DNA from: a virus
Reading direction: 5' to 3' (one strand)
Length of the DNA: 20,532 nt
IMG/VR virus record: IMGVR_UViG_3300046474_000274
Coordinates: 100,425-120,956 of that record
Under the pieces are notes generated by a model, which saw only the letters and a list, made by a program, of their open reading frames with translations, was not told the origin of the DNA and did no database searches. The position numbers were made by a program, and so were the translations under genes. Positions 626 to 17,560 of this stretch are shown in pieces (positions within the stretch are counted from its first letter, which is position 1; every line of letters begins with the position of its first letter).

Positions 626-645
626 TTAAGTAAGGACTTACTTAG
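626..645. promoter_or_regulatory. 20-bp palindromic operator-like site, copy 1
   Basis: The site reads TTAAGTAAGGACTTACTTAG, with 8-bp arms TAAGTAAG/CTTACTTA around a 2-bp centre. It lies directly after the ParB-like stop and ends one base before the ATG at 647, so it overlaps the AAGGA (632-636) that would serve as ribosome site. At the position equivalent to the -10 of the 5850 site is TAGGAT, but the -35 equivalent (AGTGAT) is poor. A promoter here is less convincing than at 5850 or 9623. Confidence 0.7.
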
Positions 646-646
646 G

Positions 647-1084
647 ATGACCGAACAGACCGCCGAAGTGATCTCTCTCGCAACCCGCAAGCCCTGGCAC
701 GAGGAGCAGGCCGAGAAGCGCAAGGCCCGCCGTTCCGATGGCCAGAGGAAGCGCTTCGAGAAGGACAAGGCCAAGAAGGATCACAAGACGGGCATGCTGA
801 TCATGCTCGACGAGGTGAGGGCGCTGATCGAGGCCGGCAAGTTCGAGGGTCTGATGATCTTCGGCCGCGATCCGAACAGCAAGGCATTCTTCAACGATTT
901 CATCCTCGATGTCGGCACCGTGCCACTCAACGACTATTTCGGCTTCGCCGGTCTGCTCGACACCGTGAGCCTCGAGCTCAAGCAGTGCGCCACGATGGCG
1001 CCGGCGCTCATGAATGACGGGTCGATCGAGGATCCGTATCTCGAGCCGGAATACGTGATGCTGGACCCGGAGGATTTCGAATGA
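647..1084 (+). CDS. Hypothetical phage protein, first gene of the accessory operon
   Basis: This is a 145-residue protein with no family I recognise. The N-terminal 45 residues are strongly basic (runs such as KRKARR and KDKAKKDHK), which suits nucleic-acid contact. The rest is compact and hydrophobic (LDEVRALIEAGKFEGLMIFG) with a very acidic tail. I chose ATG 647 because it follows an AAGGA at suitable distance. An in-frame ATG at 614 would overlap the upstream gene and translate through the palindrome. The stop overlaps the start of the ABC ATPase by 4 bases (ATGA), so the two are probably translated together. That pairing is the only hint to function. Start choice is moderately sure. Confidence 0.7.
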   Translation: MTEQTAEVISLATRKPWHEEQAEKRKARRSDGQRKRFEKDKAKKDHKTGMLIMLDEVRALIEAGKFEGLMIFGRDPNSKAFFNDFILDVGTVPLNDYFGFAGLLDTVSLELKQCATMAPALMNDGSIEDPYLEPEYVMLDPEDFE

Positions 1085-1722
1085 CCCTCTACACCATCAC
1101 CCGCAAGTTCAACACCTCGGTCGATCGCACCCCGCGCGTGCTGGAGATCGCCGAAGCCTTCGGTCTCGGTCTCTCCGACAAGGAATTCGTCGTCTACAAC
1201 GGTCTCCAGATCGAGATTAACCAGGGTGATGTCGTCTACATCACCGGTCAGTCGGGCTCCGGCAAGTCGCTGCTGCTCAAGGATCTGACGGCACAGATGG
1301 GCGAGGGCGGTCTGAAGATCGCCGATCTCAACAAGGTCGAGCTCGAGGAACGCCCTGTGATCGAGCTGGTCGGCAAGACCACGGTCGAGGCAACCGATCT
1401 GCTCGCCAAGGCCGGCATCTCCGACGCCTACATCTACCTGCGCAAGCCCTCGGAGCTCTCCGACGGTCAGCGCTACCGTCTCAAGCTCGCGATCCTCATG
1501 GCGTCCGACGCCGATGTCTGGATCGCCGACGAATTCGGCGCCGTGCTCGATCGCACGACCGCCAAGCTGGTCGCCTTCTCGATGCAGAAGGTCGCCCGGC
1601 GCATGGGCAAGACCTTCATGGTCGCGACCACCCACGCCGACCTCAAGGAAGAGCTCGGCCCCTCTCTCACCATCACGAAGCGCTTCCGCGAAAAGGTGGA
1701 AGTCGAAGGAGCAAACGCATGA
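1081..1722 (+). CDS. ABC-family ATPase resembling the ATPase half of COG2401
   Basis: The protein has 213 residues and a single complete ABC nucleotide-binding domain: Walker A GQSGSGKS (56-63), signature LSDGQR (126-131), Walker B VWIADE ending in the catalytic Glu151, and switch His185 in ATTH. It has no membrane segment, so it is not a transporter by itself. The N-terminus (EIAEAFGLGL, then VYNGLQIEINQGDVVYITG) and the C-terminal ATTHADL...ITK stretch resemble, from memory, the ATPase part of COG2401 proteins, where an ABC ATPase is fused to a GNAT-like domain. A GNAT-like gene lies in the same operon at 2661. SD GGAGGA precedes the ATG, and the start overlaps the upstream stop. The ATPase call is firm; the COG2401 link is from recalled motifs. 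Confidence 0.9.
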   Translation: MTLYTITRKFNTSVDRTPRVLEIAEAFGLGLSDKEFVVYNGLQIEINQGDVVYITGQSGSGKSLLLKDLTAQMGEGGLKIADLNKVELEERPVIELVGKTTVEATDLLAKAGISDAYIYLRKPSELSDGQRYRLKLAILMASDADVWIADEFGAVLDRTTAKLVAFSMQKVARRMGKTFMVATTHADLKEELGPSLTITKRFREKVEVEGANA

Positions 1723-2030
1723 TGAATTTCGGCGATGCATTGAACCACCTCAAGTTCGACGGCAAGGCCGCGCGCCGCGGCTGGAACGGCAAGAACATGT
1801 TCATCTACCTGGAGAAGGGCTCCGCGCCTGGCAACACGGCCGTCGAGCCGACGAGCTGGGGCATGGATCTGATCTCCGGGGTCGACAAGGACCATTTCGA
1901 AACCGGCCCCGAGGGCACGACCGTCAGGCTGCCTCACATCAACCTGCGCGCTCCCAACGGCACGATCATTACTGGTTGGCTTGCCTCTCAGAATGACATG
2001 CTGGCTGAAGATTGGGTCGAGGTGCTCTGA
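1719..2030 (+). CDS. Tad2/DUF2829-family protein (probable Thoeris anti-defence)
   Basis: This 103-residue protein closely matches the DUF2829 pattern: MNFGDAL at the start, an ARRGWNGKNMFIYL stretch (GWNGK 21-25), a LPHINLR segment (71-77), and the family-typical C-terminal GWLASQNDMLAEDW (86-99). Established knowledge: Tad2, a member of this family, binds and sequesters the cyclic ADP-ribose-type signal made by the Thoeris ThsB TIR protein, and so blocks NADase activation. By family this gene is a candidate signal sponge. Other DUF2829 proteins have no tested role, so ligand specificity is inference. AAGGAG (1705-1710) precedes the ATG, which overlaps the ABC stop by 4 bases. ATG 1722 is an equally possible start. 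Confidence 0.88.
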   Translation: MMNFGDALNHLKFDGKAARRGWNGKNMFIYLEKGSAPGNTAVEPTSWGMDLISGVDKDHFETGPEGTTVRLPHINLRAPNGTIITGWLASQNDMLAEDWVEVL

Positions 2031-2230
2031 TGGCAAAGCTCGTCACCACCGCGGACATCGTGATTCCGGCCGGCACCGAAGTCGGGCCTGGCCCGCTCAA
2101 GTCAGAATATTTCACCCCGCACGGCGAGATCATCATCGGGTTCGACAAGGACACGACCGGCTCGCTGCGCTTCGACCTCGATGAAGCCCAGGCACTCGGC
2201 CTGGTGAAGGAGGTCAGCATCAATGGCTGA
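2030..2230 (+). CDS. Small hypothetical protein, 66 residues
   Basis: The start is ATG 2030, sharing one base with the upstream stop (TGATG) and preceded by GAGGTG (2019-2024). An earlier in-frame ATG at 2012 lies inside the Tad2-like gene and lacks a good ribosome site. The product has alternating beta-like segments (DIVIPAGTEVGPG, then GEIIIGFDKD) and a short helix-like end. I recognise no domain. The PAGTEV...GP pattern recalls small beta proteins of phage accessory regions, but this is not diagnostic. Overlaps on both sides show it belongs to the same translationally coupled operon. Confidence 0.72.
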   Translation: MAKLVTTADIVIPAGTEVGPGPLKSEYFTPHGEIIIGFDKDTTGSLRFDLDEAQALGLVKEVSING

Positions 2231-2546
2231 TCGCGGCTGGTATGGCGTCGACTTCGACGGAACGCTCGCAACCTATGACACCTGGAAGGGCATCGACCAC
2301 GTCGGGGAACCGATCTGGCCGATGATCAACCGTGTCAAGAGCTGGTTGGCTGCCGGCCGCGAGGTCCGGATCTTCACCGCGCGCTGCGCCGGGCCGGAAG
2401 ACTGCACGCCGGCGATCGAGAAGTTCTGCCTCGAGCACATCGGCCAGGTGCTGCCGATCACCAACATTAAGGACTTCGGTCTGATCGAGCTCTGGGACGA
2501 TCGCGCGGTTCGGGTCGAAGAAAACACGGGCCGCAGGATCCTCTGA
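2223..2546 (+). CDS. HAD-superfamily phosphatase/hydrolase
   Basis: The protein has 107 residues. Motif I is DFDGTLA with the two catalytic aspartates D10 and D12; motif II is FTAR (T52); Lys83 in NIKDFG fits motif III; motif IV is LWDDRA (D92/D93). The size and the WDDRA ending match the small, capless HAD phosphatases common in phage genomes, often annotated as nucleotidase or polynucleotide-kinase-like phosphatase. It should dephosphorylate a small molecule or a nucleic-acid end through an Asp-phosphate intermediate; the substrate cannot be read from sequence. A near-perfect SD AAGGAGGT (2207-2214) sits 8 bases before the ATG, the best ribosome site in this operon. The start overlaps the previous gene by 8 bases. 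Confidence 0.87.
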   Translation: MADRGWYGVDFDGTLATYDTWKGIDHVGEPIWPMINRVKSWLAAGREVRIFTARCAGPEDCTPAIEKFCLEHIGQVLPITNIKDFGLIELWDDRAVRVEENTGRRIL

Positions 2547-2548
2547 CC

Positions 2549-2671
2549 ATGATCATGACCATCATTCTTCTCGTGCTGCTCGTGCTCTACCTCGTTCATG
2601 ACGAAGTGAAGTTTAGGCAGCGCTGGGAAGAGCTACACGAGCTCAAGGGCGACGAGGACGATGCTGCCTGA
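2549..2671 (+). CDS. 40-residue single-span membrane peptide
   Basis: The ORF begins MIMTIILLVLLVLYLVHDEV, a clear hydrophobic helix of about 15 residues with almost no N-terminal tail, followed by a charged cytoplasmic-type stretch with acidic end DEDD. It starts two bases after the HAD stop. Its 3' end overlaps the GNAT-like gene start (ATG 2661) by 11 bases in another frame, which fits the overlapping style of the operon and argues that it is translated. Function is unknown. Small one-span peptides in phages include holin-like, spanin-like and host-modifying proteins; the location away from lysis genes makes a lysis role doubtful. A second in-frame ATG at 2555 is possible. Confidence 0.55.
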   Translation: MIMTIILLVLLVLYLVHDEVKFRQRWEELHELKGDEDDAA

Positions 2672-3524
2672 TATCGAGACACTGATCGAGCGAAACGCGA
2701 GCCCTCGAGCTAATTTCGCGCTCACGGATCACATGTATGTGGAACGTGGGACCAAGGCTGATTGGGATCTGCTGCACGATCTGCACTACAAGGCGGAAGG
2801 GCTGCCGATCGGACCTCAGTTCTGGAAGCTGACGCTCGACGGGCAGACGATCGGCGTGCTCGTCGTCGGGATGCCGAAGGGTATGCTGAAGGAGCGCCAC
2901 CTGGTCTTCAAGAAGCTGGCGCCGGGCTCCGGCGACACGCGGCTGACCAACACCAACCGCTACATCTACATCAATGCCAATTTCCGCGTGGTCTCGCGCT
3001 TTGTCGTGGACACGATGTTCCGCGGCATCGGCGCCGGCTACCGGATGATGAACCTGGTCGCCCGGATGGACGGTCACAGGTTTATCGAAATCCAGTCGTC
3101 CATGTCGAAGTTCAACGCCTTCGGTCAGAAGGCAGGCTTCAACTTCGTCAAGCCGATGAACGCCAACAAGTTCGACGCCGGCATGAAGTTCTTCCGCGGC
3201 AATTTCGAGTCCACGCCGCAGGACTTCGAGGCCGTCGTCAACGAGCTGGAGAATTCGCCGAGGTTCGAGCAGCTCCTCGCCGCCTGCAAGGAATTCTACC
3301 AGAAGAACTCGGCCCAGGAGAATACCGGGTCCGCCCGTGACAAGGCTGACTCGCGCGTGGCTGCCATGACGCCGCGGGACGTGATCAAGGGTATCCAGCA
3401 GATGGCGCTCGCCTCGCCGATGTATGGCATCTACCAGAACCCCGACCTCGGCCGCGCCCTGCCGGAGAAGCTGCCGCTCACTGCCTTCGATCGCCAGAAG
3501 GTCAACGAAAGGCTCGTGCTGTGA
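2661..3524 (+). CDS. GNAT-like acyltransferase resembling the acetyltransferase half of COG2401
   Basis: The protein has 287 residues. A GNAT-type core is visible: an LHY motif (41-43), a beta pair ending in QTIGVLVVGMPK (62-73), then VSRFVVDTMF followed by the acyl-CoA pyrophosphate-loop-like RGIGAGYR (121-128), and IEIQSSMSKFNAFGQKAGF (142-160). The last resembles, from memory, the MAKYNPFFEKAGM-type ending of COG2401 acetyltransferase domains. Residues from about 180 are helical and unassigned. The matching ABC ATPase is encoded three genes upstream, so the usual fusion appears split. Phage Mu Mom, which modifies adenine, also has a GNAT fold, so DNA or nucleotide acylation is one hypothesis; protein or tRNA targets are equally open. 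GAGGAC precedes the ATG. Confidence 0.75.
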   Translation: MLPDIETLIERNASPRANFALTDHMYVERGTKADWDLLHDLHYKAEGLPIGPQFWKLTLDGQTIGVLVVGMPKGMLKERHLVFKKLAPGSGDTRLTNTNRYIYINANFRVVSRFVVDTMFRGIGAGYRMMNLVARMDGHRFIEIQSSMSKFNAFGQKAGFNFVKPMNANKFDAGMKFFRGNFESTPQDFEAVVNELENSPRFEQLLAACKEFYQKNSAQENTGSARDKADSRVAAMTPRDVIKGIQQMALASPMYGIYQNPDLGRALPEKLPLTAFDRQKVNERLVL

Positions 3525-3769
3525 AGCCGCGTCGCACCGAGAAGCAGAAGGAGATCATGGGTCTTATTCTGAAGGCGGCCGGCGAGGGCAGGTTCCTCAC
3601 CACGACCGACATCCATGAGCTCGTCTCCTACGAGGCAAGCTATGGCGCGATCCGGATCTCTATTCGCTTCCTTGTCTCCCAGGGAATGCTGGAACGCCGC
3701 CCGGACGGTCAATTCACTCGTCTTGTTCCCACCTTGAGAGGATACGACTGGTTCCGCCCGACGACGTGA
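3521..3769 (+). CDS. Small winged-helix-like DNA-binding protein
   Basis: This is an 82-residue protein starting at GTG 3521, overlapping the GNAT stop (GTGA). The pattern is helix (KQKEIMGLILKAAG), helix (TTTDIHELVS), recognition-type helix (YGAIRISIRFLVSQGMLER), then a beta wing (RRPDGQFTRLVPT). This is typical of winged helix-turn-helix regulators and of phage replication or packaging DNA-binders. It is the last gene before the AT-rich operator region at 3785-3836, and is the most regulator-like small protein in the window. It is a candidate, not a proven one, for recognising the repeated palindromes. A dimer would be needed for a 20-bp palindrome, and no dimerisation region is obvious. 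Confidence 0.7.
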   Translation: MKPRRTEKQKEIMGLILKAAGEGRFLTTTDIHELVSYEASYGAIRISIRFLVSQGMLERRPDGQFTRLVPTLRGYDWFRPTT

Positions 3770-3807
3770 ATTCCCATCCGTCTATCGTAATAGTTATATA
3801 TATGATA

Positions 3808-3827
3808 ATAAGTAATTACTTACTTAT
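3808..3827. promoter_or_regulatory. Palindromic operator-like site, copy 2, in an AT-rich island upstream of terminase
   Basis: The site reads ATAAGTAATTACTTACTTAT. The arms match at 8 of 9 positions around a TA centre, and AAGTAATTACTT (3810-3821) inside it is a perfect palindrome. Surrounding bases about 3785-3836 are almost all A/T, with TATATATA runs on both sides, in otherwise GC-rich DNA. With the geometry of the 5850 site, ATGATA (3802-3807) and TATATA (3825-3830) would be -35 and -10. A promoter for the terminase operon under operator control is likely; exact boxes are uncertain. Confidence 0.65.
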
Positions 3828-3914
3828 ATATATCTTACCATGAGAGGACGGGAATGAAGATCCTCCGGTGATGAGATTCAAGGTCCGCGGCATTGAGAAA
3901 ATTTGGAAGAAAGC

Positions 3915-4577
3915 ATGTCTGAAGAAGTCGAAGCGAAGGAAGAAGTCAAGGAAGGCGCCGGCTCCACGGGTAAGCGCCTGTCTGATGCTGAATTCGCCGA
4001 AGCTAAGGAACTCTACGAACTCGGCAAGGCTGGCCTGTCTGAGCTCGCGGATCAGTTCGGCGTCACCAGGCAGGCTCTCTCGGCGCGTCTGAAGAACGCT
4101 GGCGCGGTTAAGGGCTCTCGGGCACACGAAGCTGCGGCTGCAACGAAGAAGGCTGCCACGGGCTCTCCCTCGGCTGCCGCGGCCGGCGCCATCGAGCGGT
4201 TCGTCGACAAGCGCGGCGAGTGGATCGAAGAAACCCGCATCACCGGTGTCCGTCAGCTCAAGCTCGCACGCCAGCTCGCCCAGAAGGCTATCCAGGACGC
4301 CATCTCGGCCGGCCGCTCGATCGCGACCGCGGATGAAGACCTGAAGGCTGTCCAGCGCTTCAACAAGATCCTCGTCGATAACCTGGAGTCCGCCCTCAAC
4401 CTGCTCGAAGCCGACAAGCACGTCGATGAAAACGACCTGCCGACGCTCAGCATCGAAGACCTGACCAACGAAGACATCCTCAAGCACCACGTCGGCACCG
4501 GCGCGCTGCCGGAGGATACGACCGTCGAGGATATGCTGGCCGGCGAGGCCGATCCGGAGATCGAGCTCGATGTCTAA
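3915..4577 (+). CDS. terS: Terminase small subunit
   Basis: The protein has 220 residues. After an acidic, low-complexity N-terminus there is a helix-turn-helix (ELYELGKAGLSELADQFG then VTRQALSARLK, about residues 30-60), the DNA-recognition module of small terminases. An Ala-rich linker and long helices follow (about 95-180), as expected for the oligomerisation core, and an acidic C-terminus ends the protein. It would recognise the packaging start site and hand DNA to TerL. I chose ATG 3915, behind GGAAGAAAG; a TTG at 3903 in frame is weaker. The 3' end overlaps terL by 8 bases. The assignment rests on the HTH, domain order and position beside TerL, because small subunits diverge strongly. 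Confidence 0.8.
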   Translation: MSEEVEAKEEVKEGAGSTGKRLSDAEFAEAKELYELGKAGLSELADQFGVTRQALSARLKNAGAVKGSRAHEAAAATKKAATGSPSAAAAGAIERFVDKRGEWIEETRITGVRQLKLARQLAQKAIQDAISAGRSIATADEDLKAVQRFNKILVDNLESALNLLEADKHVDENDLPTLSIEDLTNEDILKHHVGTGALPEDTTVEDMLAGEADPEIELDV

Positions 4578-5841
4578 TCCGATCTCCGCTCTGAAGCTTC
4601 ATCGACTGCAGAAGGTGGTCATGAACGACCGGCACCGCTTCCGCGTCGTCGTGGCCGGCCGTCGTTGGGGCAAGACGCAGGTCTCCAAGATTTCGCTGAT
4701 CAAGTATGCGGCTGCCAGGCAGAAGCAGCTCATCTGGTATGTCGCCCCGACCTACGCGATGGCACGCGACCTCATGTGGAAGCCGCTGAAGGCTGCCATG
4801 CCGAAGGAGTGGATCAAGTCGATCCACGAGACGCGCATGGAAATGATCCTGATCAACGGATCGGAAATCTCACTCAAGGGCGCCGACAAGCCGGACTCGC
4901 TGCGTGGTGTCGGCCTGCACTTCGTCGTCATCGACGAGGCCCAGGACATCAAGGAGGAGACCTGGGAAGAAGTCCTGATGCCGACGCTCGCCACGACCAA
5001 CGGCAAGGCGCTCTTCATCGGCACGCCGAAGTCCTACAATTGGCTCTACCATCGCTTCATGCTCGGTCAGCGCGGCCCGATGGTGAAGGATCACCGCAAG
5101 CGCCTGGTCACCAACGAATGGATGAGCTGGCAGTTTCCGACCATCACCTCGCCGTTCATCCCGCGCAAGGAAATCGAAGCGCGCCGGCGCGACATGGATC
5201 CTCGCTCCTTCCGTCAGGAATTCGAGGCGAGCTTCGAGACCATGTCCGGCCGCGTCTACTATCCGTTCGACCGCACCGAGCACGTTGGCGACTATCCGTT
5301 CAACCCGGCGCTGCCGATCTATATCGGCATGGACTTTAACATCGATCCGATGTCCTCGATCATCGTCCAGGAGCAGCCGAACGGCGAGATCTGGGTGGTC
5401 GACGAGGCTGTCATGTATGGCTCGAACGTCCAGGAGACGGCCGACGAGCTGTCGAGGCGCTATTTCAAGCACTTCAACCAGATCTCGATCTATCCGGACC
5501 CGGCCGGCAACAACCGCAATCACGACCGCGGCGAGACCTCGCTCGACATCCTGCGCGAGTCCGGCTTCAACCGGATCTATTTCAAGCGCAAGCACCCGGC
5601 CGTCCAGGACCGCGTCAACGCCGTCAACCGTCTGCTGCGCACTGCAGAGGGCGACGTGCGTCTGCGCGTGAACGCCAATTGCCGCAAGTTCATCGATTCC
5701 CTGGAGCAGACCATCTATAAGGAAGGCACCAACGAGGTCGACAAGAAGCAGGGCGCCGAGCACGCGACCGACGCTTTCGGCTATTATGCGGACTTCCGTC
5801 ACCCGATGCGCAAGAGCAAGATCCTGGGCGTTTCGATTTAG
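4570..5841 (+). CDS. terL: Terminase large subunit (packaging ATPase/nuclease)
   Basis: The protein has 423 residues, a normal size. The ATPase half has a Walker A-like VVAGRRWGKTQ (27-37), Walker B HFVVIDEAQD (117-126) with catalytic Glu, and coupling motif GTPKS (151-155). The RNase H-like nuclease half has YIGMDFN with Asp255, VVDE (D278) and HATDAFGY with Asp401, the expected metal-binding acids. It pumps DNA into the prohead at the portal vertex and cuts the concatemer. The start lies inside terS, so the two are coupled. The TAG stop at 5839-5841 is three bases before the -35-like TTGCAA of the next promoter. Confidence 0.96.
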   Translation: MSNPISALKLHRLQKVVMNDRHRFRVVVAGRRWGKTQVSKISLIKYAAARQKQLIWYVAPTYAMARDLMWKPLKAAMPKEWIKSIHETRMEMILINGSEISLKGADKPDSLRGVGLHFVVIDEAQDIKEETWEEVLMPTLATTNGKALFIGTPKSYNWLYHRFMLGQRGPMVKDHRKRLVTNEWMSWQFPTITSPFIPRKEIEARRRDMDPRSFRQEFEASFETMSGRVYYPFDRTEHVGDYPFNPALPIYIGMDFNIDPMSSIIVQEQPNGEIWVVDEAVMYGSNVQETADELSRRYFKHFNQISIYPDPAGNNRNHDRGETSLDILRESGFNRIYFKRKHPAVQDRVNAVNRLLRTAEGDVRLRVNANCRKFIDSLEQTIYKEGTNEVDKKQGAEHATDAFGYYADFRHPMRKSKILGVSI

Positions 5842-5843
5842 GC

Positions 5844-5872
5844 TTGCAAGTAAGTAAGTCCTTACTTACAAT
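5844..5872 (+). promoter_or_regulatory. Promoter with operator in the spacer (copy 3), upstream of portal
   Basis: The -35-like TTGCAA (5844-5849) and -10-like TACAAT (5867-5872, five of six sigma70 positions) are 17 bp apart. The spacer is filled by the palindrome GTAAGTAAGTCCTTACTTAC (5850-5869), perfect 9-bp arms around TC, which runs into the -10. A bound protein would block RNA polymerase. The portal ATG follows 26 bases after the -10, leaving room for a leader with the AGGAA ribosome site. Confidence 0.72.
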
Positions 5873-5898
5873 GCGCGTTCATTGACGCAGGAACAATT

Positions 5899-7530
5899 AT
5901 GGCCGGAACCACGGAACATAAAGACGCGCTGAGGAACTTCTACGATCGCCGGCACCCCGGCTATCAGGAGTCGATCTCGCATTGGCACTTTCTCGACATG
6001 GCCTATCGAGGCGGCCGTGACTGGTTCCGCGACAACATTTTCCGCTACTACAAGGAAGGTGACCACGAATTCGAAAAGCGCCTGCAGCGCGCCTATCGCT
6101 TCAATCACACCAAGGAAGTCGTCGAGCTCGTCCAGAAGTATCTCTTCAAGGGCGAAATCACCCGCAATACGTCGGACGCGCACGATGTCGTCACCAGCTT
6201 TTGGAAGAAGGCGACCAAGGGCGGTGTGTCCGTCGATCAGCTCATGCGCCTGGTCTCCGTCGGTAACTCGACGGGCGGCCGCGTGGCGCTTGTGGTCGAC
6301 AACAACTTCCAGGCCGAGGTCGAGGTCTCCGAAGGCGTGACGCGCCCGGTCTCGATCGCCGAGGCCAAGGCTCAGAATTTCCGCATCTACGCATACACCG
6401 TGCCGGTCAAGGACATCCTCGATTTCGCCTTCGACGAAGATGGTGACGGCGAGCTCCTGTGGGTGAAGCTGCGCGAGATCGCCCGTGACGATCGGGATCC
6501 CTTCTATTCGACCGGCGACCTCATCGAGCGCGTGCGCCTGTGGACCCGCGACGGCTGGGAGCTCTACCAGGAGGTCGAGACCGGCGAGACCACGGTCATC
6601 AACGGCATTCGCACGCCGGTCAAGCAGGTCGAGATGATCGACTTCGGCTATCACAAGCTCGGCTTCGTGCCGGTCTATTTCGCCGATCACACGATCAATG
6701 AGGACAGCTACCGCGTCACGTCCCTGATCGACGATATCGCCTATCTCGATCGCGCCGTCGCCAACTATCTGTCGAACCTGGACGCTATCATTCAGGACCA
6801 GACGTTCTCCCAGCTCGCGATCCCGTCTCAGGCGATCCAGTCGGGCGACGACATGTTCAACAAGGTGCTCGAAATGGGCACCAAGCGCATCTTCGTCTAC
6901 GACGCTGGCGCCGGCTCGTCTGCGCGCCCGGAATATCTGTCGCCCGATCCCAAGCAGGCAGGCGTCATTCTGGCGGTGATCAACAAGATCATCAACGAAA
7001 TCTACAACACCGTCGGTCTCGCCGGCGAGCGCACGAAGGAAGACAATGCCGTCGGCATCGACAATTCCTCGGGTGTCGCCAAGGCATACGACTTCGAGCG
7101 GGTAAATTCGCTGCTTCTGGCGAAGGCTCAGTCCTGCCAGAACGCCGAAAACTGGTTGGTCAAGACCGTGCTTGCCTGGGCAGGCGAGGCGGCTCCGACC
7201 GACGACCTGGTCACCTATCCGACCACCTTCGACATCATGGGCCTGAACGACGAGCTGGTAACCGCCGAGGCACTGGCGAAGCTCCAGGGGCCGATCGAAG
7301 TGCGCCGCGAGCAGATGAAGTCGGTTGTCGACAAGATCTTCCCGCAGCTCAAGAAGGAGCTTCGCAAGACGCTCCACGCCGATATCGACAAGTGGCTCGA
7401 GGGCACTGACCTCCTGCCGCTGCCCACTTCCATCGGTGGCGCCAAGCCCGCTGCCGCCCCCAACCGTCAGGGCGAGGTCACCCGCACCACGTCCGCAAAG
7501 CCGAACACGACCAAGGCTGCAGCCAAGTAA
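5899..7530 (+). CDS. Portal protein
   Basis: This is a 543-residue protein between terminase and scaffold, the usual portal position. It shows the portal pattern: an alpha/beta wing region, the beta-rich segment around VPVKDILDFAFDEDGDGE (about 170-190), long stem/clip helices after SLIDDIAYLDRAVANYLSNLDAI (about 275-300), and a basic, Pro/Ala/Thr-rich C-terminus. It forms the dodecameric ring through which TerL packages DNA and to which the connector proteins attach. AGGAA sits just upstream of the ATG. It is the first gene after the operator/promoter at 5844-5872. I found no frameshift or missing segment. Family assignment comes from size, order and sequence pattern; no short catalytic motif exists to confirm it. 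Confidence 0.85.
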   Translation: MAGTTEHKDALRNFYDRRHPGYQESISHWHFLDMAYRGGRDWFRDNIFRYYKEGDHEFEKRLQRAYRFNHTKEVVELVQKYLFKGEITRNTSDAHDVVTSFWKKATKGGVSVDQLMRLVSVGNSTGGRVALVVDNNFQAEVEVSEGVTRPVSIAEAKAQNFRIYAYTVPVKDILDFAFDEDGDGELLWVKLREIARDDRDPFYSTGDLIERVRLWTRDGWELYQEVETGETTVINGIRTPVKQVEMIDFGYHKLGFVPVYFADHTINEDSYRVTSLIDDIAYLDRAVANYLSNLDAIIQDQTFSQLAIPSQAIQSGDDMFNKVLEMGTKRIFVYDAGAGSSARPEYLSPDPKQAGVILAVINKIINEIYNTVGLAGERTKEDNAVGIDNSSGVAKAYDFERVNSLLLAKAQSCQNAENWLVKTVLAWAGEAAPTDDLVTYPTTFDIMGLNDELVTAEALAKLQGPIEVRREQMKSVVDKIFPQLKKELRKTLHADIDKWLEGTDLLPLPTSIGGAKPAAAPNRQGEVTRTTSAKPNTTKAAAK

Positions 7531-7553
7531 CCGGCCGCACCTGCACCCGCATC

Positions 7554-7573
7554 TGGTCCGAGATACTGGACCA
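7554..7573. repeat. Small inverted repeat in the portal-scaffold gap
   Basis: TGGTCC and GGACCA form a 6-bp stem around an 8-base loop in the 96-bp gap between portal and scaffold. There is no T-run after it, so it is not an ordinary terminator. It may be an mRNA processing or stability hairpin, or chance. The rest of the gap holds only the AAGGAG ribosome site of the scaffold gene. Confidence 0.3.
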
Positions 7574-7626
7574 ACCCGACTACGCCTAATCGAAACGCCC
7601 GAGACAATGGGTAAAGGAGACTGAGA

Positions 7627-8574: not shown

Positions 8575-8597
8575 GCCAATTTTCAACTTATAGCGAA

Positions 8598-8621
8598 AAA
8601 AGTAAGCGCTAGCTTACTTTT
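8598..8621. terminator. AT-rich hairpin after scaffold gene (weak terminator or relic operator)
   Basis: AAAAGTAAGC and GCTTACTTTT are perfect 10-bp arms around GCTA, followed by TCCC. The A-tract/T-tract ends give a bidirectional-terminator look but the stem is mostly A-U. It shares GTAAG...CTTAC half-sites with the operator family, but with 6 instead of 10 bases between the outer halves. It could therefore be a variant site. It lies 23 bases after the scaffold stop. Confidence 0.4.
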
Positions 8622-8624
8622 CCC

Positions 8625-8672
8625 TTGCGCAGAAGCCCGCCGTTGGACTATTGTAAGTAAGTGCTTACATAC
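8625..8672 (+). promoter_or_regulatory. Capsid promoter with overlapping operator (copy 4)
   Basis: TTGCGC (8625-8630) and TATTGT (8649-8654) are 18 bp apart. The palindrome GTAAGTAAGTGCTTACATAC (8653-8672, one mismatch between arms) starts within the -10-like element. Bases 8649-8668 are identical to 15853-15872 upstream of the tail tube gene. The -35 is poor, so a second factor may be needed. The capsid SD AAGGAG is at 8700-8705. Confidence 0.55.
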
Positions 8673-8687: not shown

Positions 8688-8714
8688 CTATGTGCATTTA
8701 AGGAGAATTCACGT

Positions 8715-9614: not shown

Positions 9615-9616
9615 GC

Positions 9617-9645
9617 TTGAAAGTAAGTAAGAACTTACTTATGAT
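9617..9645 (+). promoter_or_regulatory. Promoter with operator in the spacer (copy 5), after capsid gene
   Basis: TTGAAA (9617-9622) and TATGAT (9640-9645) are 17 bp apart, a good sigma70-like pair. The spacer is the palindrome GTAAGTAAGAACTTACTTAT (9623-9642), arms matching 8 of 9. Same geometry as at 5844-5872. The promoter abuts the capsid terminator, so initiation would fall inside the terminator stem, leaving new transcripts without a full hairpin. Confidence 0.75.
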
Positions 9646-9671
9646 GGGCGGGATCAATTCCCGCCCATTTT
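9645..9671 (+). terminator. Strong intrinsic terminator of the capsid unit
   Basis: TGGGCGGGA (9645-9653) and TCCCGCCCA (9659-9667) form a perfect 9-bp GC-rich stem with a 5-base loop, followed by TTTT (9668-9671). It lies 31 bases after the capsid stop. It should stop most capsid transcripts and so separate capsid expression from the genes beyond. Confidence 0.85.
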
Positions 9672-9688
9672 GCTATTCGGAGAAAGCA

Positions 9689-10255
9689 ATGCCGCGCATC
9701 AAGCTCACGAAGCCCAGCTTCGCCAATCTGACCGGGCAGCTTCCCGGCAAGAAGTTCCGGGGTGTGAATTTCACCAGCGGCATTTCCGACGACATTCCGC
9801 TCGCAGTGGTCGATAAGATCGCGGCCCAGCTCGCAGGCTCTCGCCTGGTCGACGGCGCCGGTGCCGATCTGGGTCCGGCCGGTTCTCTCTATCGCAAGAC
9901 GACGATTATCCCGACGCCGCCCATTCCGCGCACCGAGTCCGTCATCGCCGAAGGCTCCGACGCCACGCGCGTTCGGACGATCAGCACTTCGACCTATACG
10001 CTTGTCGCTACCGATGTTGGCATGATCCTCGACTTCACGGTCGGCACCGTCGTCACCGTTCCGGCATCGCTCCCGGCTGCCTTCAACTGTGCGCTTCGCC
10101 AGGGTGGTGCCAATCAGATCCAGGTGGTCGCTGGGGCCGGCGCGATCGTTGAGGAAATCGACGGCAAGTTCAAGTCCGAGAAGCGCCTTGCACTGCTGAC
10201 GCTTGCACGCTTCCCGGACGGCAAGTTCCAGCTCATCGGAAGGACTTCGGCCTAA
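9689..10255 (+). CDS. Putative head decoration/virion surface protein
   Basis: The protein has 188 residues. I start at ATG 9689, behind GGAGAAAG; the frame is open further left but only across the terminator and the capsid gene's end. The C-terminal 85 residues (from TYTLVATDVGMILDF through VTVPASLPAAFNCALRQGGANQIQVV to the GGRFPDGKFQLIG-like end) follow the compact beta-domain pattern seen in many phage fibres and capsid-surface proteins. The N-terminal part is basic and Pro-rich. Position right after the capsid gene is where decoration or cement proteins usually lie. Decoration is therefore the best guess, but a head-fibre role is equally compatible, especially with an SGNH hydrolase next door. 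Its stop overlaps the next start (TAATG). Confidence 0.55.
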   Translation: MPRIKLTKPSFANLTGQLPGKKFRGVNFTSGISDDIPLAVVDKIAAQLAGSRLVDGAGADLGPAGSLYRKTTIIPTPPIPRTESVIAEGSDATRVRTISTSTYTLVATDVGMILDFTVGTVVTVPASLPAAFNCALRQGGANQIQVVAGAGAIVEEIDGKFKSEKRLALLTLARFPDGKFQLIGRTSA

Positions 10256-11850: not shown

Positions 11851-11862
11851 GGAACCTCTAAT

Positions 11863-12498: not shown

Positions 12499-12501
12499 GC
12501 C

Positions 12502-13341: not shown

Positions 13342-14087
13342 TTCCTCATCGCCTCACCGAGGCTGCCGACCAGGCAGCGGTTCGCTACGACCATCTCGCC
13401 CAGACCTTCAGCGCTCTCCACACGACGGCGCTGATGTCGGCCGAGTTTGGCTATGCGAACCAGTCGAGCAAGCTTTTTGCCGAAGCATACGACGCTGCCG
13501 GTCTCTATTTCGAACGCGACAAGGAGAGCATGGGCGACCATATGTTCTCAATCGCTGAAAACGCTCACCAGCGCGTTTCTGAAAAGCTGACGACTATCGA
13601 GTCGTCTGGCCTGTCGGACGCAGCCCTGGAGCATCTGAGCGAGACCCAGACGTATCTCTCAAACGAGATCGCTGCTCAGGTGCATCGCGACATCGCACAG
13701 ATGCGCTTTTCGCTTCAGCGGGCGGTTCTGGGCGTCTCCCTCATCGAGCGCAGCCGGCGCATCCCGACCAGGCAGGCGCAGATGGCTTACGTCATGAAGG
13801 ATCGCCAGGAGCTCCAGCTTCAATTCGTCGATCGCCGCGGGCGCCGCACGCCCACCAGGACGTTCATCCGCTCGGTTTATCGCCATGCGCTGTTGTCGAT
13901 CCACAACGAGGTCACGCTGCACGCGCTGGCCGATCACGGCGTCGAGCACGCAGCGGTCATGAAGCTCGAGGATGGCGTCGAAAAGCAGATCGACCGGATC
14001 TCGATCCAGGACTACGCCGCGGTGCGCGACAGTCTGTTCCATCCCAATTCGAATTCCTTCCTGGATGTGGAGATCGACGATGTTTGA
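13338..14087 (+). CDS. Hypothetical neck/minor structural protein
   Basis: This 249-residue, mostly helical protein has no family I can name. The start is TTG 13338, overlapping the upstream stop (TTGA) with GAGGA 10 bases before; ATG 13434 is the next alternative and would drop 32 residues. Long helices (HLAQTFSALHTTALMSAEFG, SETQTYLSNEIAAQVHRDI) precede a region with basic patch VDRRGRRTPTRTFIRSVYRHAL (about 163-184), and the C-terminus is acidic. The RGRRTPT...R pattern looks somewhat like the end of phage minor head (gp7/MuF-like) proteins, but the cysteine/histidine hallmarks are not obvious. It overlaps the next gene by 8 bases, so it belongs to the neck operon. Confidence 0.62.
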   Translation: MIPHRLTEAADQAAVRYDHLAQTFSALHTTALMSAEFGYANQSSKLFAEAYDAAGLYFERDKESMGDHMFSIAENAHQRVSEKLTTIESSGLSDAALEHLSETQTYLSNEIAAQVHRDIAQMRFSLQRAVLGVSLIERSRRIPTRQAQMAYVMKDRQELQLQFVDRRGRRTPTRTFIRSVYRHALLSIHNEVTLHALADHGVEHAAVMKLEDGVEKQIDRISIQDYAAVRDSLFHPNSNSFLDVEIDDV

Positions 14088-14427
14088 GCCCAACGTGCTA
14101 GGCAAGATCTCGCGCGTCATTGGTCGCGACGTTCACGCCCGGCCGACCTTTTCCGAGCCCGCGGACTGCCCGTTCGGCATCGTCAATCTGAATATTGGCG
14201 CGGCGAAGACCGTCGTTCGCGCCGACTCGTCCGCCTCTCGCGGCTCTGCCGATGAGGAGATGGCCGAGCGCGCCAAGATCCTGATCGCCCCTTACGTCAC
14301 GGTCGCGATCGGCGACCGCTTTGAATTCGACGGCATGACCTTCGTCATCGCCTCGAGGCACGTCCGGCGCTCCGTCATGGGCCAGGTCGATCACTTCGAG
14401 TGCGATCTGGAATTGGTGCCGGCATGA
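14080..14427 (+). CDS. Putative head closure (stopper) protein
   Basis: The protein has 115 residues, start ATG 14080 behind GGAG (14069-14072), inside the end of the previous gene. The product is beta-rich with a central barrel-like segment (APYVTVAIGDRFEFDGMTFVIASRHV) of the kind found in head-closure and head-tail joining proteins (SPP1 gp16/HK97 gp9-like), where a small barrel caps the portal channel. Its place between the connector group and the gp10-like gene is the expected one. There is no catalytic pattern. The upstream in-frame extension to 13972 is only a shadow of the neighbouring gene. Assignment is by fold pattern and order, not by a unique motif. Confidence 0.6.
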   Translation: MFEPNVLGKISRVIGRDVHARPTFSEPADCPFGIVNLNIGAAKTVVRADSSASRGSADEEMAERAKILIAPYVTVAIGDRFEFDGMTFVIASRHVRRSVMGQVDHFECDLELVPA

Positions 14428-14921
14428 AGCCCAGGATGAAGCTCACCGGTCTGACGGCCGTTCGCACCGAGCTGCGCACGATTGCCGAGAAGGTGCCGGA
14501 CACGGCTCGCAAGACCATGCACCGTTCTGCGGCGAACATCGTCGAGACGGCAAGGGCATGGGCGCCGGAAGACGAAGGCAACCTGGTGCGCGGCATCCAG
14601 ATCATCAAGGACTATGCCGGCATGAACGGCCGCCTTCAGATCGATATCGGGATCGAGATGCCGCCTGACGCATTCTCGGCCTCGGGCACGCCGCTGACCT
14701 CGGACCAGTTCGACATCTACGCGACCCTGGTCCACGAGAACTACGAATACGTCATGCGCGTCAACGGCCCCGGCCCGAAGACGCTGGCGAAGATGGCAAC
14801 CAATCCGAACAAGGTCGGCTCAGGCTTTCTGTCACGCGCGGCACGCGACGAGGAACCCAAGCTGGAACAGAAAACGATCGAGGCCATCACCAAGATCATC
14901 AATGAGGTATCGACCAAGTGA
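14424..14921 (+). CDS. HK97 gp10-like neck/tail completion protein
   Basis: The protein has 165 residues; start ATG 14424 overlaps the upstream stop (ATGA). The pattern matches gp10-type proteins: LTAVRTELRTIAEKVP at the N-terminus, then helix TARKTMHRSAANIVETARAWAPEDEGNL (the A..AP...G.L signature), a strand segment with ATLVHENYEYV (the H/E-Y motif), and the end GSGFLSRAARDEEPKLEQ, equivalent to the family's FL.RA...... C-terminus. These proteins lie at the head-tail interface and complete tail attachment. The residues APEDEG (about 55-60) and HENYEY (about 111-116) are the best landmarks. Good agreement of several landmarks in order makes this one of the surer neck calls. Confidence 0.75.
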   Translation: MKPRMKLTGLTAVRTELRTIAEKVPDTARKTMHRSAANIVETARAWAPEDEGNLVRGIQIIKDYAGMNGRLQIDIGIEMPPDAFSASGTPLTSDQFDIYATLVHENYEYVMRVNGPGPKTLAKMATNPNKVGSGFLSRAARDEEPKLEQKTIEAITKIINEVSTK

Positions 14922-15334
14922 TCTACGATATTCTGGAAAAGAAGCTCATCGACTCGGGCCTGGTCGTCGCCGGCGTTTCATTGTTTCGGGGCTTCATGCC
15001 GGCCGAGTGCCTGGTTGGCGTCATGACCCGCACTCCGCTCACCGGTATCAACATCGATCCCTTCATCGAAGGCTGGCATAAGACGGAACTGCAGGTCATC
15101 TGCCGGCACAAGGATCCTGTCGACGGTGCGAAGTTTGCCGCTGACGTTTGCAAGGCGCTGATCGTCGAGAGCCTGGAGACCTATCCGGCTTCGGAAGAGC
15201 GCGGCCCGGCCCACGTCAATCTATTTTATCCGATCACGCTGCCGATCCAGTATCCGCGCCTCGAAGGCCACGGCCTGGAATTCTCGCAGCACTTCAAGGC
15301 GGCGTTCGGCTTTAAGCCGGACTGGAAGGCTTAG
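14918..15334 (+). CDS. Tail terminator/minor capsid-like protein
   Basis: The protein has 138 residues; GTG 14918 overlaps the upstream stop (GTGA) and GAGG (14904-14907) gives a ribosome site. The fold pattern is helix (YDILEKKLIDSG), strands (GVSLFRGFMPAE), a long strand with WHKTELQVICRH, then helix DGAKFAADVCKALIVE and closing strands with YPITLPIQYPRL. This matches the tail-terminator proteins (lambda gpU/HK97 gp10-gp11 neighbourhood, and the 'minor capsid protein from bacteriophage' family), which cap the tail tube and bind the neck. Gene order (after gp10-like, before tail tube) agrees. It is the last plus-strand gene before the reversed moron; only 4 bases separate the convergent stops. 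Confidence 0.7.
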   Translation: MIYDILEKKLIDSGLVVAGVSLFRGFMPAECLVGVMTRTPLTGINIDPFIEGWHKTELQVICRHKDPVDGAKFAADVCKALIVESLETYPASEERGPAHVNLFYPITLPIQYPRLEGHGLEFSQHFKAAFGFKPDWKA

Positions 15335-15338
15335 CCCG

Positions 15339-15695
15339 TCAGGATTTGCTGATGCTTTCGAGCGTCATCTTGTAGATGTTGTCGAGGGTCTCGAGGCGGG
15401 CGGAACTGTCGGCGGCGCATTCGCTGCCGCTTCGGTGTTTCTCCGTCTTGTAATATTCGATCAGGTCTTGGGTAGCCTTGCCGACATCTACATTGGTGCT
15501 GGCGAGCGCCGTTAGGAAGTCAGCGTCATATTTGCTGTCGAACTGCAGGCGACAGTTCTCAGACATGATCCTCATCCTCGATATGACATTGAGCATGACG
15601 AAATAGGTCGCGTCATCAACGTCCTTGGCCTGCGCTGCCGGGGTAAGCGAGCTGAAGATGAGTAGTGCGGCCGCGGCCGCCTTGAGTATGCGCAT
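15339..15695 (-). CDS. Secreted/periplasmic moron-like protein
   Basis: This is a 118-residue protein on the minus strand, the only convincing reverse gene in the window. It has a textbook Sec signal peptide: MRILK, a hydrophobic core (AAAAALLIFSSL), and cleavage site TPAAQA/KD after residue 23. The mature part has two cysteines (C48 and C93), possibly a disulfide, and helical character (YFVMLNVISRMRIM). I recognise no family. A reversed, separately transcribed gene for an exported protein, dropped between tail terminator and tail tube, is the classic setting of a moron. It may alter the host envelope, for example to exclude other phages, or be a lysogenic-conversion factor. A CGGAG ribosome site precedes its ATG. 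Confidence 0.78.
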   Translation of the reverse strand: MRILKAAAAALLIFSSLTPAAQAKDVDDATYFVMLNVISRMRIMSENCRLQFDSKYDADFLTALASTNVDVGKATQDLIEYYKTEKHRSGSECAADSSARLETLDNIYKMTLESISKS

Positions 15696-15797
15696 TGGTG
15701 TGGCTCCGAATGGTTTTGCAACCTCTCTAGCAACGCCTGCAAAGGTTGTCGAGCGGCCTGGTTGAGGGATGATTTCTCACCCTTATCCGAGGCCAGA

Positions 15798-15811
15798 CGC
15801 ATAAGTATGCG
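15798..15811. promoter_or_regulatory. Second-type palindrome upstream of the moron gene
   Basis: CGCATA-AG-TATGCG is a perfect inverted repeat with 6-bp arms and 2-bp centre, unrelated in sequence to the GTAAG family. It lies in the 225-base gap between the moron and the tail tube gene and overlaps the predicted minus-strand -10. It could be an operator for a separate (host or phage) regulator of the moron. Confidence 0.45.
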
Positions 15812-15835
15812 ATTACTGACTTTTTCCGTTGTCAA
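15807..15835 (-). promoter_or_regulatory. Candidate moron promoter (minus strand)
   Basis: A consensus -35 TTGACA occupies 15835-15830 on the minus strand. With a 17-bp spacer the -10 would be TCGCAT (15812-15807), which is poor but sits on the palindrome at 15798-15811. Its -35 overlaps the plus-strand TTGTCA of the tail tube promoter, so the two promoters would be divergent and mutually exclusive. A start here leaves a leader of about 105 bases before the moron ATG. Confidence 0.35.
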
Positions 15836-15876
15836 GTCCTCCCGTTTTGCGGTATTGTAAGTAAGTGCTTACTTAT
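15829..15876 (+). promoter_or_regulatory. Tail tube promoter with overlapping operator (copy 6)
   Basis: TTGTCA (15829-15834, five of six) and TATTGT (15853-15858) are 18 bp apart. The palindrome GTAAGTAAGTGCTTACTTAT (15857-15876) begins in the -10-like element. Geometry and the 20 bases from 15853 are the same as at the capsid gene. The operator is flanked by TTGCGG (15847-15852) and CCGCAA (15883-15888), again forming a longer concentric inverted repeat. Confidence 0.65.
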
Positions 15877-15920
15877 CTTCGTCCGCAATGGGCGAAGCTG
15901 TCGCTGAAGGAGAATGCGCA

Positions 15921-16751
15921 ATGGCCTCGTCCACCGAGAACGTAAAGCTCGGCGTTTGCAACGTTCTCTTCGACGGGATCGACCTTGGCTTCACCAAGGG
16001 CGGCGTCGAAGTGGAAGTTGCCACGTCTACGAAGGAAATTACTGTCGACCAGTTCGGTGAAACCCCGATCGGCGAAATCATCATGGGCCGCACGGTCTCG
16101 GCGAAGGTGCCGCTGGCCGAGACGACGCTCGATAACCTCGTCGCCATCATGCCGGGCTCCGAACTCATTTCCGATGGCGCCAAGGCCGTCGGCACTGTTA
16201 CGTTCGCCACCGCAGCTCCGGTCAACACCGACAGCATCTCGATCGCTGGCGCGGTCTTTACGTTCAAGACGACCCCGGTCGGCCCGAACGACATGGCAAT
16301 CCCGGCCTCGATCGGCGCTGCCGCCTCTGCGCTCGCAGCCAAGATCAACGCCAATGCCATCCCCTACGTTGCCTCTGCACTGGCCGGCGTCGTCACGGTG
16401 ACCGCGAAGAACCGCGGTGTTTCCGGCAATGGCGTGATCACCAAGACGGTCGCAACTCCGGCTAACGTCACCGTTGTCAACCTGGCAGGCGGCGTCGATG
16501 CCACCAAGGCTCAGGTCAAGGTCTCCAACGGCGTCAACACCAACCTGCTCGCACTCGCCAAGACGCTCGTGCTTCGCCCGAAGGGCACGGCCGGTGAAGA
16601 CGACTTCACCATCCACCGCGCGATGTGCCCCGGCGCCCTGAACTTCGCCTACCAGTTCGACAACGAGCGCGTCTTCTCGGCCGCCTTCAAGGGCTACGCC
16701 CTCGACGATGGCCAGCTCTTCGCGCTCGGCGACGTGACTGCGACCGGCTAA
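15921..16751 (+). CDS. Major tail tube protein with inserted Ig-like domain
   Basis: The protein has 276 residues; ATG 15921 follows AAGGAGA. An earlier in-frame ATG (15888) lies in the operator hairpin and is rejected. The tube domain is split. Residues 1-90 carry VKLGVCNVLFDGIDLGFTKGG and VEVEVATSTKEITVDQFG, ending PGSELISDG. Residues about 195-276 resume with NLLALAKTLVLRPKG and end in GYALDDGQLFALGD, the tail tube core. Between them (about 90-195) is an inserted domain, GTVTFAT...DSISIAGAVFTFKT...AALAAKINANA...VVTVTAKNRGVSGNG, the same type found in many phage tail proteins. It would project from the tube surface. The protein polymerises around the tape measure to form the tail. The gene is flanked by its own promoter and terminator. 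Confidence 0.85.
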   Translation: MASSTENVKLGVCNVLFDGIDLGFTKGGVEVEVATSTKEITVDQFGETPIGEIIMGRTVSAKVPLAETTLDNLVAIMPGSELISDGAKAVGTVTFATAAPVNTDSISIAGAVFTFKTTPVGPNDMAIPASIGAAASALAAKINANAIPYVASALAGVVTVTAKNRGVSGNGVITKTVATPANVTVVNLAGGVDATKAQVKVSNGVNTNLLALAKTLVLRPKGTAGEDDFTIHRAMCPGALNFAYQFDNERVFSAAFKGYALDDGQLFALGDVTATG

Positions 16752-16778
16752 GCGGCTCACCGCTTCTGATCATCACGG

Positions 16779-16811
16779 CCGGCGCCTCTCACCAGGGACG
16801 CCGGTCTTTTT
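16779..16811 (+). terminator. Intrinsic terminator of the tail tube unit
   Basis: CCGGCG (16779-16784) pairs with CGCCGG (16799-16804). After one mismatch the stem extends with CTCT/AGGG around a CACC loop. The sequence TCTTTTT follows (16805-16811). It lies 27 bases after the tail tube stop and should end most tail tube transcripts before the chaperone genes. Confidence 0.82.
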
Positions 16812-16835
16812 CCTCCTGACACAAGAGAGACTGAA

Positions 16836-17192
16836 ATGACCAAGGTCATCAACATCGCTTCCCTTCGCAAGCCTGCCGCTGTCGTCATCGAGACGGAAGA
16901 TGGGAAGAAGCACGACATGGTCCCGGCGACCGTCGGCACCTTTATCGAGAACCTCAAGGAAATCGAGGAACTCGGCCTGGACGCTTCCCCGATCAAGGAA
17001 GCCGAAATGACCCTTCGCGCTATTCAGCGCGCGTTCCCGACGCTTGAGCGCTCCGAGATCGACAAGTGGACGCTCGACGTTATCCAGAGCCTCTACGAGA
17101 TGATCCTGACGGTCAACGGTGAGGTCGCTTCGAAGGATCCGGCCGTGATCGAGGAGGTCAAGAAGACGGGAAAGTCCGCGGCGGCGGAGTAA
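16836..17192 (+). CDS. Tail assembly chaperone, short product (lambda gpG-like)
   Basis: The protein has 118 residues. Small, helical and acidic with a Lys/Ala-rich end, it lies between tail tube and tape measure, the fixed place of the gpG/gpGT chaperones. Landmarks are TVGTFIENLKEIEELG (about 28-43) and the helix IDKWTLDVIQSLYEMI (about 68-83). It binds the tape measure during tail assembly and is absent from finished virions. The slippery heptamer GGGAAAG at 17168-17174 lies 18 bases before the stop, in the correct phase (G GGA AAG), so a fraction of ribosomes would move to -1 and make the longer fusion. ATG 16836 follows a GAGAGA ribosome site. Confidence 0.85.
   Translation: MTKVINIASLRKPAAVVIETEDGKKHDMVPATVGTFIENLKEIEELGLDASPIKEAEMTLRAIQRAFPTLERSEIDKWTLDVIQSLYEMILTVNGEVASKDPAVIEEVKKTGKSAAAE
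17168..17174 (+). other. Programmed -1 ribosomal frameshift site
   Basis: GGGAAAG in zero-frame phase G GGA AAG is the X XXY YYZ class, and is the same heptamer used at the lambda G-T junction. The -1 frame is open from 17123 to the stop at 17539, so only an overlap of about 70 bases can host the shift, and the heptamer lies inside it. A GC-rich stretch follows directly (17175-17189). Confidence 0.85.
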
Positions 17193-17539
17193 GCCAGATC
17201 GACCTTGGCTTCCTGATCTGCAGGGTCATGGCCGAGTATGGTTTCTCCGTCGATCAAGTCCTGGAGCTAACGGTCAAGCGGTTCTGGTTTATCTCGAACA
17301 TGATTGACCGCATCCGGGCAGAGAAGGATCTGAGGCAGATCCAGTTGATGGCGTCAGTGGGTTCGAAGGAGGCATACGAAGCCGCCTTCAAGTCACTCAA
17401 CTCTCAGGCCGGTGAGGTCTTTGTGCTCGAAAAGGAAATCCCGACGGAGATCCGGATCGACCCGAAGACCGGATTGGACCCTGAATTCGATCGTGAGGGT
17501 CTGCGGGCACTGAAGATGAAGATCGCTGCTGGCCGCTGA
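17174..17539 (+). CDS. Tail assembly chaperone T-part, made by -1 frameshift (lambda gpGT-like)
   Basis: After the shift the reading frame gives VRGGGVSQIDLGFLICRVMAEYG and on to the stop, adding 121 residues to 113 from the first gene, a fusion of about 234. The continuity of DLGFLICRVMAEYGFSVDQVLELTVKRFWF across the ATG at 17228 shows that this ATG is internal, not the true start; it also has a poor ribosome site. The T domain (GFSVDQVLELTVKRFWFISNM, then a Lys/Arg-rich helix) is the part that, in lambda, contacts the tail tube subunit and recruits it to the tape measure. The stop is two bases before the operator at 17541. Confidence 0.8.
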   Translation, partial: VRGGGVSQIDLGFLICRVMAEYGFSVDQVLELTVKRFWFISNMIDRIRAEKDLRQIQLMASVGSKEAYEAAFKSLNSQAGEVFVLEKEIPTEIRIDPKTGLDPEFDREGLRALKMKIAAGR

Positions 17540-17540
17540 C

Positions 17541-17560
17541 CTAAGTAAGTCCTTACTTAG
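17541..17560. promoter_or_regulatory. Palindromic operator-like site, copy 7, upstream of tape measure
   Basis: CTAAGTAAGTCCTTACTTAG has perfect 9-bp arms around TC. It lies between the chaperone stop and the tape measure ATG (17570), and its right end overlaps the AGGA ribosome site (17559-17562). The -10 equivalent (TAGGAA) and -35 equivalent (GCTGAC) are poor. GATAAT at 17566-17571 covers the start codon and is unlikely to be used. Here the site may block elongation or translation rather than initiation. Confidence 0.7.

Follow-up and report, generated by a model that had tools for sequence, protein, structure and literature searches.

The plasmid prophage P1 is held silent by a single master repressor, C1, which acts at 22 operators dispersed over the genome (PMC8546580). 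In mycobacteriophages of the L5 clade (cluster A), about 30 dispersed sites, the stoperators, are asymmetric, 13 bp long, orientation-biased and mostly located off promoters, and they block elongation; joint drift of motif and repressor among relatives has produced immunity groups (PMC6550527). The dispersed intergenic element SPBRE of phage SPbeta was known from sequence long before its repressor, MrpR, was identified (PMC10516654). Furthermore, loss of a C1-type repressor in a 42-kb Tritonibacter phage-plasmid is described as turning on capsid, tail and lysozyme genes and not plasmid genes (PMC10090143). Here, we analyzed 20-bp palindromes in a 20,532-nucleotide stretch of DNA (the window), which corresponds to bases 100425-120956 of a 120,956-base virus contig (IMG/VR record IMGVR_UViG_3300046474_000274; here, G000) that represents an SSU5-type phage-plasmid of Rhizobiaceae. 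Judging from the sequence, it is highly probable that these palindromes are promoter-embedded operators of one small master repressor, encoded by the phage-plasmid itself, that would silence about forty groups of lytic genes.

By its layout, the palindrome system appears to be of the dispersed-operator master-repressor kind and would work like P1 C1, with the L5 and SPbeta systems as more remote parallels. Both involve a plasmid prophage, one master repressor (here, a putative one) and many genome-wide operators, including one at the repressor's own gene. However, P1 operators are asymmetric and 17 bp long, whereas the sites described here are 20-bp palindromes, number 29-55 per complete genome and are also found at late structural promoters. 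The original prediction likened the palindromes to the L5 stoperators while noting that they are true palindromes; this likeness extends to the dispersal of the sites and the joint drift of motif and repressor, but not to the sites themselves, for we found neither an asymmetric, oriented site nor a majority of sites away from promoters. MrpR differs in its recombinase fold, its 15-bp motif and its about 10 bound promoters from the HTH_3 protein that is our candidate. The Tritonibacter system, although similar in what is silenced, belongs to a different, smaller phage-plasmid, and an operator set is not mentioned in the searched text of that report. Our literature search, which lay outside subscription papers and preprints, found nothing relevant for the motif letters or for SSU5 operators, and no published operator set or regulon for SSU5-type elements.

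The closest named relatives of the contig are the Rhizobium phages V1VFA-S, B1VFA and RHph_X66 (~87% DNA identity), followed by RHph_Y2_11, N1_10 and RHEph10 and, after those, by the SSU5 group. SSU5-type membership is indicated by homologous terminase, portal and capsid genes together with plasmid replication and partition genes; repC and parA are annotated in V1VFA-S, X66 and Y2_11. V1VFA-S and B1VFA have earlier been called phage-plasmid-like (PMC12509600), two close relatives of the contig, pLM21S1 (Sinorhizobium) and pRlX6 (Rhizobium beringeri), were deposited as plasmids, and a related terminase exists in 932 plasmid records.

All seven palindromes reported for the window (Table 1) are present, with zero to three mismatches to GTAAGTAAGNNCTTACTTAC and 0 matches in 100 dinucleotide shuffles, and all seven are located between reading frames. 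A symmetric matrix revealed two weaker copies that had been overlooked, at 8598-8617 (55 bp from the copy at 8653) and at 15801-15820 (56 bp from the copy at 15857). In the sigma-70-like promoters at 5844-5872 and 9617-9645, the operator itself forms the 17-bp spacer. Across four genomes, 52 oriented sites come directly after a different promoter-like element, TCCC-N12-CGCTATAA. Measured from its centre, a site lies a median of 40 bp from the start codon.

Our genome-wide analysis shows that the palindromes mark the starts of transcription units. With up to three mismatches and overlaps counted, TAAGTAAGNNCTTACTTA occurs 39 times in the contig, 42 times in V1VFA-S and 39 times in X66, while the reversed pattern at the same threshold has 0 matches in the contig; the symmetric matrix gives 38 sites in the contig. 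In V1VFA-S, 36 of 41 sites are wholly intergenic, compared with an intergenic share of 9.7% of the genome. A site is carried by 34 of the 68 gaps of at least 25 bp and by none of the five convergent gaps, and the gap before repC has no site. At two or fewer mismatches, 101 bacterial genomes of the order contain 17 matches in all, versus 33 in the 121-kb contig. Being phage-specific, tied to transcription units and all but absent from gene bodies and bacterial genomes, the motif is consistent with the palindromic site for a dimeric DNA-binding protein that had been proposed. The matrix scan of the whole contig and its relatives, suggested as a check at the time, found sites kept at the same gene boundaries, and neither an equal density in genes or host DNA nor a lack of conservation in relatives was observed. 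Two details of the original prediction need revision. (i) The sites are not tied to late structural units only, since most are located elsewhere, also before replication, nucleotide-metabolism and small unknown genes (early, middle and late). (ii) The central 2 bp, described as variable, are not fully free, with C or T at position 10 in 31 of 38 sites and A or G at position 11 in 35 of 38.

The motif changes between clades while the set of genes preceded by it is retained. RHph_Y2_11 has zero matches to the window-clade motif and carries TCAATCAATATTGATTGA-like palindromes at the same intergenic places. Clade motifs were obtained by counting palindromes without a seed, which gave TAAGTAAG for the window's clade, LM21, Shinella and Klebsiella, TCAATCAA or TAAGTCAA for Y2_11, N1_10 and Pararhizobium, TCAGTCAG for Methylobacterium, TTAGTAAG for Acinetobacter pABTJ2, TAGGTAAG for SSU5 and nothing coherent for nickie. 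By matrix, alphaproteobacterial genomes have 38-55 sites each, and Klebsiella, Acinetobacter and SSU5 have 29-32. Operator sharing was scored per gene, comparing V1VFA-S genes that have an operator with those that do not. The same genes are preceded by an operator in 31/33 versus 3/98 cases in G000, 18/20 versus 9/57 in Shinella, 19/22 versus 4/65 in Y2_11 despite its different motif (P = 1.6e-12), 11/15 versus 4/39 in Methylobacterium and 8/11 versus 1/19 in Klebsiella. Because the same genes carry operators across clades with different motifs, the regulon is older than the present motifs. Very probably, the same switch operates with a shifting DNA code across a large phage-plasmid family, from Rhizobium to Klebsiella and Acinetobacter.

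The best candidate for the protein that reads the palindromes is a predicted 130-amino-acid Cro/CI-type (XRE, HTH_3) protein encoded outside the window, at contig positions 24146-24538, next to repC/cobT. With no candidate preselected, 35 of the 160 V1VFA-S proteins have counterparts in the elements of Y2_11, Methylobacterium, Klebsiella and Acinetobacter alike. The site-free nickie lacks four of the 35, and SSU5 in turn lacks a single one of these four, the XRE protein V1_105. Like nickie, hairong and BUCTxx99 have neither the XRE protein nor the sites, and in a Methylobacterium oryzae plasmid both are present. The position of the gene beside cobT/cobS is kept, together with repC in alphaproteobacterial elements and with an integrase gene in enterobacterial ones. 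Eight Rhizobiaceae elements, drawn from three lineages, have an imperfect operator 131-150 bp before the repressor start, which ends in TTGACTTA and contains a -35 box, TTGACT; the M. oryzae repressor gene has the same upstream arrangement with the -35 box inside the operator. Between this operator and the start codon lies a CGCTATAA element that has no operator (G000 24082, V1VFA-S 75284, X66 59721 and LM21 1760), possibly a second, unrepressed promoter of the repressor gene. The reader of the TCCC-N~12-CGCTATAA element may be the sigma-like factor that the phage itself encodes.

Assignment to the Cro/CI (XRE) family is based on the HTH_3-type domain and on a five-helix repressor head in the predicted fold. 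The V1VFA-S protein matches Pfam HTH_3 with 27.6 bits (cut-off, 23), and the Y2_11 ortholog stays under the cut-off. Foldseek matches of the predicted fold include lambda repressor, 434 Cro and C-proteins, none of them below an E value of 0.001. Pfam detects no S24 peptidase or cleavage domain in the protein, 130 amino acids in all, which is accordingly not of the self-cleaving lambda CI type. Other possible readers were discarded: two ribbon-helix-helix (RHH) proteins, a CopG-like one beside repC and another beside ParA, are not common to other site-bearing elements, and ParB-like proteins are also present in nickie. Homologs carried by bacterial chromosomes and by other plasmids (loci L108-L118 and a Cereibacter plasmid) are, by context, not phage-plasmid repressors; no sites were found in the neighbourhoods of loci L108-L118.

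A residue of the candidate protein covaries with the operator. In the motif TnAnTnAn, T and A are constant and the letters between them are variable. For all 32 proteins that have at least two sites with one base clearly in the majority, Asn is paired with A at the inner variable position and Gln, Arg or Lys with C. The residue concerned is the third after the helix-turn-helix (HTH) glycine (N37 in the contig's protein), just before the recognition helix, predicted at residues 39-45. The M. oryzae protein, which was checked after the rule was set, has Lys and C and fits. The match supports the pairing of this protein with these operators. Loci L132-L138 (IMG/VR; G+C content, 41%) form an AT-rich lineage with the helix FKRPN and TCAGTCA-type sites, whose motif is uncertain; in a 38.7-kb contig of this group, the reversed control has 11 matches, more than the pattern itself (5 matches).

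CYRAN_45 of the phage-plasmid Cyrano (E. coli LF82) is an ortholog of the XRE protein. It is annotated as a putative repressor, and its transcription in the lysogen is 10 times the local median (PMC9928086). Scanning Cyrano with a matrix derived from other genomes identifies 20 sites, 18 of which are intergenic. SSU5 (NC_018843) has kept about 30 operators and lost the repressor: compared with Cyrano 39021-43137, SSU5 42525-42761 is without the stretch containing tRNA genes (tRNA-Thr), integrase, repressor and CYRAN_46. Loss of the integrase and repressor genes may explain the isolation of SSU5 as a lytic phage.

We propose that a repressor dimer reads two half-sites of 9-10 bp and covers the -35/-10 region or the transcription start at about 30 to 55 promoters, thereby blocking initiation. 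During replication of the element as a RepC plasmid, almost every lytic unit, whether for phage replication, nucleotide metabolism, head or tail, would be kept silent individually. The operator over the -35 box of the repressor gene itself would provide autorepression, and loss of the repressor would release all units at once. As the protein has no S24 domain while Cyrano responds to ciprofloxacin, the off-switch is likely to be a damage-controlled partner or an antirepressor. A gene for a LexA-like S24 peptidase, CYRAN_98 (OV696614 89311-89700), is annotated in Cyrano and is a possible link to DNA-damage induction.

Several observations weigh against this master-repressor model. About half of the sites in the four genomes fall outside all three simple promoter patterns tried. 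The repressor has no cleavage domain according to Pfam, yet Cyrano is inducible by ciprofloxacin (PMC9928086). Among the genes expressed in the Cyrano lysogen, 13 of 14 have no predicted operator, where about two overlaps are expected by chance; the direction is as expected, and the difference is not significant. The residue-base switches on the tree number only three, two of them on well-supported branches, and one once the AT-rich L132 group is removed; three loci with the helix YENP (one site each, weakly sampled) do not fit the rule. Because the independent switches are so few, the residue-base match does not reach formal significance and falls short of proof.

Other functions of the palindromes must be weighed against repression of initiation. 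A temperate phage with about 30-55 dispersed sites, some of them between co-directional genes without a recognisable promoter, could also be using these as stoperators, at which the repressor would mainly block elongating RNA polymerase, as in mycobacteriophage L5. We regard this as improbable, because the symmetry of the sites leaves them no orientation, because -35/-10 boxes overlap them or a conserved -10-like element immediately precedes them and because, as noted above, they are largely intergenic and close to the next start codon. It is quite unlikely that the sites instead serve an activator, or are promoter elements for a phage sigma factor or late activator: although a sigma-70-like protein is encoded by these phages and the TCCC-N12-CGCTATAA element stands immediately before many sites, the palindrome stands behind two unlike promoter types, in one of which it makes up the 17-bp spacer, a position at which bound protein would obstruct the polymerase. 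Moreover, sites precede early and late genes alike, and the CGCTATAA element also occurs without the palindrome, including before the repressor gene.

The ties of the sites to gene starts and their absence from the repC side, together with the distribution of RHH and ParB-like proteins described above, make it very doubtful that they are partition, origin or nucleoid-type sites read by a ParB- or RHH-type protein, even though ParA and RHH proteins are encoded by these plasmid elements. Dispersed centromeres do exist in N15. Finally, perfect palindromes between genes might act as RNA hairpins (terminators or attenuators) or bind a host regulator. To this we assign hardly any probability: transcription from the spacer-type promoters would start downstream of the palindrome and leave it out of the transcript, a 2-nucleotide loop is poor, convergent gaps are free of sites, and the motif is scarce in bacterial genomes of the order.

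Table 1. Operators and promoter boxes in the window (positions are those of the window)
Feature	Sequence	Position	Strand	Context	Same place in relatives
Operator	TTAAGTAAGGACTTACTTAG	626..645		Between ParB-like gene (stop 624) and next gene (ATG 648)	V1VFA-S 32039, X66 15577 (same boundary)
Operator	ATAAGTAATTACTTACTTAT	3808..3827		Upstream of terminase-small-subunit-like HTH gene (about 3903-4577)	V1VFA-S 35169
-35 box	TTGCAA	5844..5849	+	Operator is the 17-bp spacer	
Operator	GTAAGTAAGTCCTTACTTAC	5850..5869		Ahead of portal gene (5899-7530)	
-10 box	TACAAT	5867..5872	+	Portal-gene promoter-like element, 5844-5872	
Weaker second operator	AAAAGTAAGCGCTAGCTTAC	8598..8617		Capsid promoter	
Operator	GTAAGTAAGTGCTTACATAC	8653..8672		Overlaps -10 box TATTGT (8649-8654) of major capsid gene (ATG 8715)	
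-35 box	TTGAAA	9617..9622	+	Same promoter as operator 9623..9642	
Operator	GTAAGTAAGAACTTACTTAT	9623..9642		Ahead of gene 9689-10255	
-10 box	TATGAT	9640..9645	+	17 bp from -35 box TTGAAA; operator fills spacer	
Weaker second operator	ATAAGTATGCGATTACTGAC	15801..15820		Tail-protein promoter	
-35 box	TTGTCA	15829..15834	+	Tail-protein promoter	
Operator	GTAAGTAAGTGCTTACTTAT	15857..15876		Overlaps -10 box TATTGT (15853-15858) of tail-protein gene (ATG 15921)	
Operator	CTAAGTAAGTCCTTACTTAG	17541..17560		Ahead of tape-measure gene (ATG 17570)	V1VFA-S 49214, X66 33055

The capsid and tail-protein promoters of the window (8598-8672 and 15801-15876) have two operators each, ~55 bp apart, and the pair is kept in several Rhizobiaceae elements. 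The tandem pair at the capsid gene is also found in V1VFA-S, X66, LM21, Y2_11, N1_10 and Pararhizobium; a two-operator pair was not seen in enterobacterial elements. A ParB-like gene ends in the frame that is open from the window start (166-624); at this place, V1VFA-S and X66 have two consecutive ParB-like nuclease genes, away from parA. On the minus strand at 15339-15695, a small gene with a signal-peptide-like start opposes the direction of the late module. A similar gene occupies that place in V1VFA-S and a different one in X66; the window gene may be expressed in the lysogen.

SSU5-type elements are among the commonest phage-plasmids, and a defined repressor-operator pair would explain why their lytic genes are silent during plasmid life. 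The Y2_11 clade and the window's clade offer a natural case in which one protein and dozens of operators would have shifted specificity jointly with the regulon unchanged. We see roughly an even chance that this amounts to an immunity code spanning the supergroup of SSU5-type phage-plasmids of alpha- and gammaproteobacteria, in which one repressor family silences 30-55 lytic promoters directly, a change of one HTH residue, accompanied by a base change in dozens of operators, gives rise to new immunity groups with the same regulon, and free-living lytic relatives arise through repressor loss. Such a pair would also predict which elements exclude each other and would flag, from sequence, those relatives that are beyond silencing.

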